This document shows, one piece after another, positions 25,710-30,261 of a stretch of 40,355 bases of DNA. How positions within the stretch are numbered: position 1 is the stretch's first letter; each line of letters opens with the position of its first letter. Source of the DNA: Chlorobiota bacterium (GTDB taxonomy: Bacteria > Bacteroidota > Bacteroidia > Bacteroidales > B39-G9). The DNA is taken from positions 1 to 40,355 of the forward strand of contig JAADFW010000036.1 of NCBI GenBank assembly GCA_013152655.1, in the 5' to 3' direction. The notes under the pieces were generated by a model that was not told where the DNA came from, did no database searches, and saw only the letters and a list, made by a program, of their open reading frames with translations. The position numbers and the translations under genes were made by a program.

Positions 25710-25790
25710 GACAGAAGTTACAAATTATATGGATTAGTTTTAAAAATAACTTTTTTGTTTAAGAAAAACCATCAAAATGTTTTTTGCTAC

Positions 25791-26096
25791 ATGTTTTTAC
25801 AACGATTAGATAAATGGTTTTCATCCGTTAAAAAGCTTTTGTTTAAGTACAAAGACGGCTTTTATGAGTTGCCTTTAATTGCTAATTCTCCGGAAGCTAT
25901 TGTTAAGAGTATAACTAAAATGCCTTTTGTTAAGCATTCAGAAGCGACAGGGGTATTTGGAACAAATAACCCTTTTGTAAAAGCCGAGATTAAATACCAT
26001 AAAATTAATGAGGAATTATGGGTTATGGACTCAATTGCGGTTTATAAAGAAAATATCCTGTACAAGCGTATTACTGATAATTATCCGAATAATTAA
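25791..26096 (+). CDS. Hypothetical protein (ATG at 25791 preferred; TTG alternative at 25755)
   Basis: ORF co-directional with pnuC; no family recognised. Confidence 0.55.
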   Translation: MFLQRLDKWFSSVKKLLFKYKDGFYELPLIANSPEAIVKSITKMPFVKHSEATGVFGTNNPFVKAEIKYHKINEELWVMDSIAVYKENILYKRITDNYPNN

Positions 26097-26153
26097 AATC
26101 TCGTGTATCTAAAATTAATAAGAGTAATAATAATTTTGAATGACAAAAGCTCT

Positions 26154-26427
26154 ATTTAATTTAATATTAATTATAACTGACAGGATTTGGTTTTGGTGGG
26201 TAAAGGTGCAAAAACCTTACCAGGGCAAACAGTTGTTGAACTGTTTGAGCCAGGTTGCAGGGCTACTTTTGTATAGAGGTTTGGTGAATAGGCCGCAAAA
26301 ACCTTAACATAAAATATAACGATAGCGAACAACAAGTTGTCCGACATCTTATTTTATGTTAAATATGCCTTTCAGGCCTATTACGGTTTTTGCTTACATA
26401 AGTCCTATAATTAATATTATGTTAAAT
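26154..26427. repeat. Non-coding palindromic element with terminal inverted repeats and nested internal stems (structured RNA or MITE-like)
   Basis: 22-bp terminal inverted repeats (26154-26175 / 26406-26427, 20/22). Internal perfect stems: 26208-26216/26385-26393 (9 bp), 26226-26234/26239-26247 (9 bp), 26287-26294/26375-26382 (8 bp), 26304-26316/26350-26362 (13 bp). No ORF of 60 aa or more. Confidence 0.6.
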
Positions 26428-26442
26428 AGAAACAATTAAATG

Positions 26443-26498: not shown

Positions 26499-27680
26499 CT
26501 ATTCACTTTTTACAGTTTTATTCTTAGCGGCCTCAATTAAATCTTTCATTTCTTTATATTTATCCATCATTTGCAATCTGTAATACATTTCTTTTAATGA
26601 TATCATAGTTTCAATATGTTCAGGTTTAATTTCATGTGCCTTTTCCAAATATGGCAAAGCAACTTTAAACTGATCGTAAGCCTTTTGTTTTTCTGCTTCG
26701 TATTGTTTGTTTGTTAATTTCAAATTATCATTTGCGGCTTTAATAATATCACCTGCCATATTATAATAAATAGCTCCGAGGTTTAGTAGTGCATCAAAAT
26801 AATCAGGCTTTAGCTCAATAGCTTTTTTATATGATACAATAGCATTATCTGTTTCTTTAAGCTGATCGTACAATGTACCTTGTGCAAAATAATAAGTTTG
26901 ATTTTCAGGATCATTTTCAATAGCAATTTTAAGATATTCCAGCGCTTCTTTTGATTTTCCTGTTGACAGGTAAAAATTTATTAATTCAACCATCAAAGCA
27001 TTATTATCTTCAGGAAATGCAGCAATTCCATCTTTTAGTGTAGCTAAGAATTTAACTGTATCACCTTGATTCTTCAATATATTTGCCATATAGCTATAAA
27101 CACCGGAGCCTCCATAGTTTAATTCAGAAACTTTTTTATACATTTTATAAGCTAAATCGTACATATGTGCTCTGTCAGCAGCTATTGCAGCGTTAAACAT
27201 AACTACTGTATCTGTTTTGTTAAATTCAGGCAATTCATTAATAGCTAAGCTATTAACAAAATCTTCGTATGATTTTTTATATTCACCATTGTTAAAGGCA
27301 TCTATCCCATCATTCATAAACTGAAGAGAAGCTGTTGTAAGTCTTGAGATAATGTCAATTTTATATTGATTTTTTGTGTCAAGTTCCATGGCCTTTTCGT
27401 ATGATTCTACTGCAACTTTCAAAGGATCAGGGTCTAAAGATTTAAATTTTTCATCTTTACTCTGATAAATAGAATGATAAATTTGTCCTCTATAATACCA
27501 TGTTTTTGCTTTACCTATTGTTTTTTCATGCTTGGCAGCAGCATCAATATTCTCTTTAGCCTTATCCAGCTCATTGTACTGTGGTTTCATATAATTGTAT
27601 GCACTTACAACTTTGGAGTTTTGTGCATAAATAAATGAAAAACTAATACTTAGAATTAATAATATTACAATTCGTTTCAT
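26499..27680 (-). CDS. Secreted tetratricopeptide repeat protein
   Basis: Signal peptide; TPR units (YYFAQGTLYDQLKETDNAIVSYKKAIELKPDYFDALLNLGAIYYNM). Confidence 0.88.
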   Translation of the reverse strand: MKRIVILLILSISFSFIYAQNSKVVSAYNYMKPQYNELDKAKENIDAAAKHEKTIGKAKTWYYRGQIYHSIYQSKDEKFKSLDPDPLKVAVESYEKAMELDTKNQYKIDIISRLTTASLQFMNDGIDAFNNGEYKKSYEDFVNSLAINELPEFNKTDTVVMFNAAIAADRAHMYDLAYKMYKKVSELNYGGSGVYSYMANILKNQGDTVKFLATLKDGIAAFPEDNNALMVELINFYLSTGKSKEALEYLKIAIENDPENQTYYFAQGTLYDQLKETDNAIVSYKKAIELKPDYFDALLNLGAIYYNMAGDIIKAANDNLKLTNKQYEAEKQKAYDQFKVALPYLEKAHEIKPEHIETMISLKEMYYRLQMMDKYKEMKDLIEAAKNKTVKSE

Positions 27681-27771: not shown

Positions 27772-30261
27772 TTATTCATTATTATTATTGTCTTCTTCTG
27801 TTTCTTCTGCTTTATCGCCGTTTCCATTCATAGCAATATAAGCAACAGCAGCTATTTCATCATTATCTTTTAAATTAATAAGCCTTACACCTTGTGTTGC
27901 CCTGCCCATTACACGCATTTGCGAAACAGCTATCCTAATGGCTATGCCAGATTTATTTATTATCATTAAATGATCAGAATCAACCACACTTTTAATAGCA
28001 ATTAAACTACCGGTTTTTTCAGTAATATTCAACGTTTTAACCCCTTTGCCTCCACGGTTGGTTATTCTGTAATCGTTAATACTGGAGCGTTTTCCATATC
28101 CTTTTTCAGAAACAACCAATACATCTTCGCTTTCATTTTCAATAGTTATCATTCCAATAACTTTATCGGTTTTCTTTAGGCTAATTCCTTTAACTCCCGA
28201 TGCAGTCCTTCCTATTGCCCTAACTATACTTTCGTGAAAACGAATTGCCTTTCCTGATCTTATTGCTATTAATATATCATGATTTCCATTTGTTAACTTT
28301 GCTTCTAACAAATGATCATTTTCCCGAATATTAATTGCATTTATTCCATTTTGGCGTGGCCTTGAGTACGCTTCAAGCGAAGTCTTTTTTATTATGCCGT
28401 TTTCTGTACACATAATAATGTAGTTATTATCTACATACTCTTTATCATCTAATTTTTTAACATTTATATAAGCTTTAACTTCGTCGTCAGGTTCAATATT
28501 CAATAAATTTTGAATGGCCCTGCCTTTTGAAGTTTTACTTCCTTCAGGTATCTGATATACTTTGAGCCAGAAGCATTTACCATTTTCTGTAAAAAACATC
28601 ATCGTATTGTGCATAGTAGCTATATACAAATGCTCTATAAAATCTTCATCACGTGTTGTGCTTCCCTTTGAGCCAACTCCTCCCCGTCCTTGTGTTCTAT
28701 ATTCAGATAAAAGTGTTCTTTTAATATAGCCCATATGAGAAATGGTTATAACTACTTCATCATCAGCATAAAAGTCTTCAGGATTAAACTCTTCTGCATT
28801 AGGAACTATTTCGGTTCTTCTTTCGTCGCCATACTTTTCTTTTATTTCAAGTAGTTCATCCTTAATTATTTGCATCCTAATCTCTTCATTTGCAAGTATT
28901 TCTTTCAAATGCTCAATTAGTTTCATTAGTCCATCATATTCTTCTTTTATTTTATCGCGTTCAAGGCCGGTAAGCTTCTGTAAACGCATGTCGAGTATGG
29001 CTTTTGCCTGAATTTCACTCAATTCAAATTTTTCCATTAACCCGTTTTTAGCCTCTTCCGGCGTTTTTGAAGCTCTGATTAGTGCAATAACTTCATCTAT
29101 ATGATCAAGTGCAATTAATAAGCCTACCAGAATATGTGCTCTTTTTTCAGCTTCATCTAATTCAAATTGTGTTCTCCTTTTAACAATTTCATGCCTGTGC
29201 TCAACAAAATTAATAATTAAGTCTTTCAGGTTTAATTGCTTTGGCCTTCCTTTAACCAATGCAATATTATTAACACTAAATGAGGTTTGTAGCTGGGTAT
29301 ATTTAAATAATTTGTTTAACACAACATTAGCAACGGCATCTTTCTTTAACGTATATACAATACGCATGCCTGTCCTGTCCGATTCATCATTAACATGTGC
29401 TATTCCTTCAATTTTTTTGTCATTTACCAAATCGGCTGTTTTTATTATTAATTCAGCCTTATTTACCATATATGGAATTTCAGTAACAATTATCTGTTCT
29501 CTTCCTGAAGGTTTGGTTTCTATTTCCGTTTTAGCACGTACAATAATTCTTCCTCTTCCGGTTTGAAAAGCCTCTACAACACCATTATAGCCATAAATTA
29601 TTCCACCTGTAGGAAAATCAGGAGCCTTTACAAACTCAATTAATTCGTCAATTTCAATCTCATTATTATTTATATATGCAATAATTGCATCAATAACTTC
29701 ACTAAGGTTGTGGGGTGGCATGTTAGTAGCCATTCCAACTGCAATTCCCGAAGCGCCGTTAACAAGCAAATTAGGTATCCTGGTTGGCAATACAGTTGGT
29801 TCTTTCAGTGTATCGTCAAAATTTAATTTAAAATCAACGGTATTTTTATCCAGGTCGGCAAGTGTTTCTTCTGCAATTTTCTTAAACCTTGCTTCTGTAT
29901 AACGCATTGCAGCCGGACTATCGCCATCAACAGATCCAAAGTTGCCTTGTCCGTCAATTAATGGATACCTTAACGACCATTCTTGTGCCATTCTTACCAT
30001 TGCATAATATACAGATGTATCACCGTGCGGGTGATATTTACCAAGCACCTCTCCTACAATTCTAGCCGATTTTTTATAAGCCCTTGAGGCAGATAATCCT
30101 AATTCAGACATTCCAAAAAGTACTCTTCTGTGTACTGGTTTCAAGCCATCTCTAACATCAGGAAGAGCCCTTGAAACAATTACCGACATTGAATAGTCAA
30201 TGTAGGCAGATTTCATTTCTTCTTCAATATTTACTTTTAATATTCTTTCGCCGTCAGCCAT
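27772..30261 (-). CDS. gyrA: DNA gyrase subunit A
   Basis: [30 protein letters not shown]-type N-terminus; [45 protein letters not shown]; GyrA-box-like QGRGGVG. Confidence 0.97.

Follow-up and report, generated by a model that had tools for sequence, protein, structure and literature searches.

A dif-linked DNA hairpin module of Bacteroidota as the probable right end of Xer-dependent integrative elements

The window, a stretch of 40,355 nucleotides covering positions 1 to 40,355 of contig JAADFW010000036.1 (assembly GCA_013152655.1) from a Chlorobiota bacterium placed in the Bacteroidales, holds a 274-bp non-coding element at 26154-26427. The original prediction had placed it between convergent genes and had described terminal inverted repeats enclosing a set of stems. 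The neighbours are indeed convergent, with an open reading frame on the forward strand (25755-26096) facing a gene for a TPR-repeat protein, beyond which lies gyrA (Table 1). Every stem that had been named, including the apical one, lies where it was reported, and the terminal repeats extend over 25 nt (26151-26175 and 26406-26430) with 92% complementarity. Such complementarity was thought unlikely to arise by chance, and the folding energies agree. With RNA parameters, the minimum free energy of 26140-26440 is -87.4 versus -60.7 ± 4.8 for dinucleotide shuffles (z = -5.6, with none of 100 shuffles reaching it). With DNA parameters and G-T pairs disallowed, z is -7.0 for 26150-26430 and -6.6 for 26290-26400, again with 0 of 100 shuffles as good in each case. 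The further claim that all stems nest in one fold survives only in part. The stems exist, but AATAGGCC/GGCCTATT is absent from the predicted fold because its bases are used by a local hairpin, GCCT-TTC-AGGC, located just 3' of the main stem; therefore, the stems cannot all form simultaneously. It is the local hairpin that homologues keep.

Table 1. Features of the element, its neighbours and one related locus.
Feature	Position	Strand	Basis or remark
Left terminal repeat, inverted dif-like site	26154-26177	-	20/24 versus reverse-complemented dif; pairs with dif on the folded strand
Hairpin CAAACAGTT-GTTG-AACTGTTTG	26226-26247	+	With flank 26222-26271, 80% identical to a stretch in G001
Outer stem, 5' arm GCAAAAACC	26295-26303	+	Differing complementary sequences in relatives
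Main hairpin, folded dif-like site	26304-26362	+	Alignment A1, compensatory changes, match to own dif
Small hairpin of the three-way junction, GCCT-TTC-AGGC	26363-26382	+	DNA and RNA folds; variable hairpin there in homologues
Outer stem, 3' arm GGTTTTTGC	26385-26393	+	Pairs with 26295-26303
Chromosomal dif site (predicted), AAGTCCTATAA-TTAATA-TTATGTTAAAT	26400-26427	+	Sequence, position, conservation
XerC box of dif	26400-26410	+	
Centre of dif	26411-26416	+	
XerD box of dif	26417-26427	+	
TPR-repeat protein, conserved right-hand neighbour of dif	26499-27680	-	Pfam; same neighbour in L212, L213, L214
gyrA (DNA gyrase subunit A), next conserved neighbour	27772-30261	-	Pfam
Conserved non-coding stretch	L212 5432-6287	-	Counterpart L214 9407-10195

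Between the left dif-like repeat and the right repeat sits a three-way-junction hairpin of 110 nt, whose main stem is a folded dif-like site. In this stem, TTAACATAAAATA (26304-26316) pairs with TATTTTATGTTAA (26350-26362). The 5' arm, TTAACATAA, is an inverted XerD box followed by a conserved asymmetric bulge and an apical stem-loop, and the 3' arm carries XerC-like and XerD boxes (...TTATGTTAA). The element occurs as a single copy in its own genome, a draft of 287 contigs. The separate hairpin closer to the left repeat has its flanked counterpart in G001 on contig C250 (L031), next to a dif-like half-site. In that locus (positions 308, 2894 and 3461), genes of toxin-antitoxin type (zeta-like, HigB) lie between direct repeats, ATAATATTATTATGTTAAATA, which are dif-like with a 5-bp centre, and a hairpin, GGGCAAACA..TGTTTGAGCC, which recurs at window positions 26222-26271. 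The locus looks like an array of Xer modules.

dif is the chromosomal site where Xer enzymes untangle chromosome copies. Judged by its sequence, position and conservation, the right terminal repeat is this site and the predicted substrate of the host XerC and XerD recombinases. Its XerD box is identical at 11 of 11 positions to the XerD box of E. coli dif. When the element was used as a query on 99 related genomes, matches at E ≤ 1 were found in 92, many of them weak, and the strong ones fell nearly all on its last 28 bases, AAGTCCTATAATTAATATTATGTTAAATAG. Across the order, the core is ~90-100% conserved over query positions 253-281 in the best-matching relatives, and the genome of the window has one such core. 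In G325, G522, and G494, three complete chromosomes of the same class that bear the hairpin, the cumulative GC skew peaks at dif, placing the site at the replication terminus there, and the GC skew of the window turns at ~26 kb. The pair of TPR gene and gyrA adjoins dif in other members of the order too (L212-L214). On the left, pnuC is the neighbour in the window and is missing from the dif contigs of relatives, so that the left flank offers no clean pair of occupied and empty sites. dif sites have been predicted for Bacteroidetes earlier (PMC3025954). Microvirus proviruses integrate at dif in Bacteroidales, and extra dif-like sites were described for those of Bacteroidetes, when chromosome dimer resolution was unstudied in the phylum in 2011 (PMC3091885).

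A scan of 84,980 species genomes for an XerD box 28-58 nt ahead of dif returned 85 stretches, nearly all from Bacteroidota, and more than 50 of these have the same hairpin structure ahead of dif; pattern matches with dif and no hairpin (e.g. L083, L091, and L114) were excluded. The carriers belong to Bacteroidales, Cyclobacteriaceae and their relatives, Flavobacteriales, and other groups. One contig labelled Eubacteriales (L090, DAOUQP010000179) bears the hairpin with a Bacteroidota-type dif and is probably mis-binned. The shared layout consists of the outer stem, the main hairpin TTTAACATAAAATC-bulge-GTTATCG...CGATAAC-T-GATTTTATGTTAAAT, the small hairpin, a spacer and dif, with the hairpin upstream and mostly ~35-45 nt from the dif core. 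The outer stem is built from many different complementary sequences. In the 3' strand of the main hairpin, the 16 nt before the XerD box match the genome's own dif at 8.25 of 16 positions on average, compared with 4.95 after shuffling, and inverted dif-like sites upstream of the hairpin score at least 16/24 in 16 of 51 relatives, compared with ~4% of shuffles. We found no description of this module in the open-access literature on dif/Xer with Bacteroidota, defence systems or hairpins.

The homologues also covary. In alignment A1 (53 sequences, 19 stem pairs), 97.3% of cells are paired and 125 cells are compensatory, that is, changed on both sides, whereas shuffles give 36 and none of 500 reaches 125. 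When the partner is displaced by 1-3 columns, the pairing and the covariation score collapse. The XerD half-site patterns used for retrieval predetermine pairs 15-23/89-97, so that independent evidence comes only from the remaining 11 pairs, and these hold nearly all compensatory changes. The structured element put forward in the original prediction is therefore real, but its RNA nature is not supported. G-T pairs fill just 3 of 1003 stem cells overall. The 579 cells of the 11 independent pairs comprise 552 Watson-Crick, 3 G-T and 24 unpaired cells, giving a G-T frequency of 0.5%, whereas a small control of 18 tRNAs in related genomes has 3.2% in its acceptor stems (p = 0.024). All changes that keep pairing are two-sided, and none is one-sided. 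Covariation with near-zero wobble is what would be expected for a DNA hairpin.

A structured RNA of an uncharacterised kind, whether a gene or a regulator, would account for the strong fold with RNA parameters, the compensatory changes and the intergenic location. However, the stems of the element consist of dif and XerD half-sites, one end is dif itself, and no coupling was seen to a plausible target gene of RNA regulation. Rfam gave no match at gathering or relaxed thresholds, in line with the earlier failure to assign the element to a known RNA. With this and with a wobble count that favours DNA, an RNA gene was rejected and appears very improbable. The case calls for caution, as z-scores and covariation are insufficient to call an RNA and wobble pairs must be counted. 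A MITE, or another small transposon unrelated to Xer, was the second possibility raised at the outset, and the element is short, non-coding and bounded by terminal inverted repeats. Yet it is hardly credible, because the single copy in the genome, the lack of any transposase link, a right repeat that is a conserved dif present also in genomes without the element, and a position fixed at dif in relatives all speak against it; the copy number led us to reject it. The broader notion of a mobile element with terminal inverted repeats came close, as the module ends Xer-type integrative elements in relatives. The 274-bp element is thus no RNA gene and is best read as an attachment module of DNA.

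With a covariance model of the hairpin (R1), under which the window scores 71 bits, the hairpin was found in 14 of 295 genomes of the order (an even draw) and in 13 of 396 genomes drawn from the phylum. Its distribution is thus patchy. Strong matches in whole-genome scans (above ~40 bits) were examined in ten genomes (G000, G002, G003, G012, G121, G154, G180, G205, G285, and G296), where they adjoin dif, a dif variant, another hairpin of the same array, or a contig end. Within genus g3, one species has the hairpin (G003) and another lacks it (G004). Tandem hairpins without cargo exist, in which the intact copy adjoins dif and the copies upstream are partly degenerate (L084, L117, and L067). 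In Brumimicrobium salinarum (L084), five tandem units of ~140 bp occupy 1883-2544 upstream of dif, and the 3' outer-stem arm is kept only in the copy adjoining dif.

In four relatives (G285, G002, G180, and G615), two hairpin copies 3.5-9.6 kb apart flank cargo. The order in G285 (L212) is hairpin, CCTATAAT-GTCCTGC-ATTATGTTAATATAG, cargo, an XerD half-site, ~850 bp of non-coding DNA, hairpin, dif, TPR gene and gyrA. Its two hairpins are identical, and its cargo encodes a C5 methylase, a HATPase, a response-receiver protein, a PtuA/HEC-04-like ATPase and Vsr. G002 follows the same plan, and the non-coding stretch between half-site and hairpin is 85% identical in the two genomes over 279 bp of its length. 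G180 carries CBASS (cyclase, E2, and 2TM effector) and a zeta-like toxin. In G615, a HATPase protein is followed, past the second hairpin and another variant core, by an AriA/HEC-01-like pair. Overall, the cargo of the four comprises CBASS, restriction-modification/Vsr, a HEC-01-like ATPase and a zeta-like toxin. The cargo proteins scanned include no recombinase or integrase and no phage gene; in the G002 insert, an IS630-like transposase was identified only by visual inspection. In G285 and G002, dif borders the insert on one side and a dif-like hybrid site borders it on the other, in direct orientation to each other. The sequence at left junctions can be read as a hybrid in which the XerC half of the chromosome joins the centre and XerD half of the element, ATAATGTYCTGCRTTATRTTAATATAG, a pattern found in 5 of 295 genomes of the order versus 0 for a reversed-pattern control. 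Just upstream of it, the hairpin is intact in G285 and G002 and degenerate in G154 and G043, and in G012 only outer-stem-like sequence is left; G615 has two hybrid-type cores. The element-type core of the left junction is common to different families and orders.

These arrangements point to the element as probably the right-end attachment module of an IMEX-like family of integrative elements that use Xer, standing in the window as a bare end at dif. Members of the family would carry no recombinase of their own and would integrate at dif through the host tyrosine recombinases XerC and XerD, with the inverted dif-like site and the three-way-junction hairpin as the right end. We infer that the module folds on single-stranded DNA, that XerC and XerD would then find double-stranded binding sites both where the terminal repeats pair and in the inner dif-like hairpin with its asymmetric bulge, and that XerCD links this folded strand to dif. 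Insertion would leave the hairpin and a regenerated dif on the right, and the XerC half of dif followed by the centre and XerD half of the element on the left. The regenerated dif could accept further elements, giving arrays of anti-phage defence cargo. The window would then have kept the right end alone after losing its cargo.

Several observations do not sit easily with a right-end module. The window itself contains neither cargo nor a left junction. The hairpin lies 40 nt away from the recombined junction, so that a direct role for it as an Xer substrate in folded, single-stranded form is proposed by analogy with CTXphi. Searches of IMG/VR, of 50,697 phage records and of plasmids did not reveal a free form, either plasmid or phage. 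Typical XerC/XerD genes of ~300 aa were not found in the 287-contig draft, which has only a 383-aa relative and fragments, and the reading gives no account of the ~850-bp stretch or the half-site before it in G285 and G002. In addition, several species of Cyclobacterium and Fulvivirga have the hairpin but no visible cargo, as might be the case for a resident chromosomal feature. This is the main rival: a hairpin or cruciform that helps or gates dimer resolution by XerCD/FtsK, similar to the accessory sequences of plasmid Xer sites, with cargo merely inserting nearby. It would explain the narrow range of spacing to dif, the tandem arrays in which the copy adjoining dif is the intact one, and a genus in which several species show no cargo in the stretch examined. 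It does not explain the patchiness, with no hairpin found in ~95% of the sampled genomes of the order and genus g3 split, or the doubled copies around cargo in four genomes, and the left-junction core common to families and orders also argues against it. We therefore consider a resident accessory element unlikely.

A right-end module has a precedent in CTXphi, a phage of Vibrio cholerae. Its folded ssDNA attachment site, attP(+), is formed by the pairing of two inverted dif-like sites (PMC4246890). Similarly, the DNA fold of the window pairs two inverted dif-like sequences on one strand (the 25-nt terminal repeats), the element has no recombinase and is proposed to depend on host XerC/XerD, and a functional dif would remain next to the insert after integration. 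Unlike CTXphi, it has an extra internal hairpin, dif-like and with a three-way junction, inside the terminal pair, whose spacing is 230 nt instead of 90; it also lacks phage genes, carries defence genes as cargo in relatives, and belongs to Bacteroidota. Integrative mobile elements exploiting Xer (IMEX) include TLCphi, VGJphi, the gonococcal genetic island and LME-1. Insertion at dif, checked cargo without a recombinase, and an intact and a variant dif flanking the insert are features in common with them, whereas a conserved structured right end common to elements with unrelated cargo and arrays of defence systems are not. The mobility of the present elements is predicted from sequence.

The same architecture of inverted dif-like sites pairing on a single strand would fit what is left of an ssDNA provirus of CTXphi or BMV type, similar to microviruses or filamentous phages and integrated at dif. 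The Microviridae proviruses BMV1-7 sit at dif in Bacteroidales, have no recombinase and in some cases possess an additional dif-like site close to one of their ends, but they contain virus genes, and no conserved hairpin of the present family was reported for them (PMC3091885). No Rep or major capsid gene was found by Pfam around 26.1-26.5 kb, where the genes are cellular, no phage gene adjoins any hairpin examined, and the cargo is of defence and toxin-antitoxin type. When applied to the IMG/VR loci drawn by two patterns, the covariance model detects no copy of chromosomal type, and the 50,697 phage records gave no match. A provirus remnant is thus improbable. Among the IMG/VR loci, those drawn by the pattern of the hairpin 3' arm (L157-L191) gave no covariance-model match, so that the pattern matches are due to chance, and the left-junction pattern had 0 matches in IMG/VR. 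The right-end region of G285 gave no match in the phage records and one 46-bp plasmid match.

Other Xer-type sites were seen in IMG/VR contigs. L149, L156, L152, and L155 contain inverted dif-like pairs folding into a hairpin, and the first three of these contigs also have genes of tailed phages (portal, baseplate hub, tape measure, and amidase); the pairs are possible Xer-dependent attachment sites in dsDNA phages. Clusters of at least five XerD-type half-sites (TTATGTTAAA, in both orientations) with a spacing of ~20 bp occur in L140 and L144.

The hairpin may also resemble the attC site of integrons, with two inverted boxes, asymmetric unpaired bases, a variable terminal loop and a place at the ends of tandem cargo units. 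With respect to the attC box pattern RYYYAAC/GTTRRRY, GTTAAAT fits and the 5' box of the window, CCTTAAC, lacks the first R; homologues have GCTTAAC (L002) or GTTAATC/GTTAACC. Unlike integrons, the boxes are of XerD type and insertion occurs at dif and not at attI. In attC the hairpin is the junction itself, whereas here it is 40 nt away. No protein above the IntI cut-off (TIGR02249) was found in ten hairpin genomes, and IntI was rejected as the recombinase since tyrosine recombinases reached only sub-threshold scores. Each of G002, G003, G285, G180, G615, and G522 has at least two XerC/XerD-type genes of ~300 aa. The 383-aa recombinase of the window's genome (G000:C205:211-1011, reverse strand) is XerD/IntI-like and ~80 aa longer than XerC/XerD. 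It has relatives of ~380-395 aa in G003, G285, G325, G494, and G522 that are not clearly present in G180 and G615, and it is therefore no consistent partner. Contig C1 of the complete genome G494 contains dozens of clustered tyrosine recombinase matches, some in repeated copies (e.g. 1241713-1246323 and 2683871-2699992). More tentatively, dif might serve as the 'attI' of a defence-gene array, an integrase-free, integron-like capture platform at the Bacteroidota terminus where XerC and XerD would recognise folded ssDNA hairpins and stack defence-gene islands, regenerating dif each time.

In this study, we described a conserved, covarying structure of DNA, not RNA, that is tied to dif across a phylum. 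The hairpin provides a way to locate other ends of Xer-dependent islands with CBASS, restriction-modification and toxin-antitoxin genes. To our knowledge, recombination of a folded strand in the manner of CTXphi has so far been a specialty of phages. If it proves true here, it would extend the CTXphi trick to bacterial defence islands and would link dif/Xer to integron-like cassette capture.
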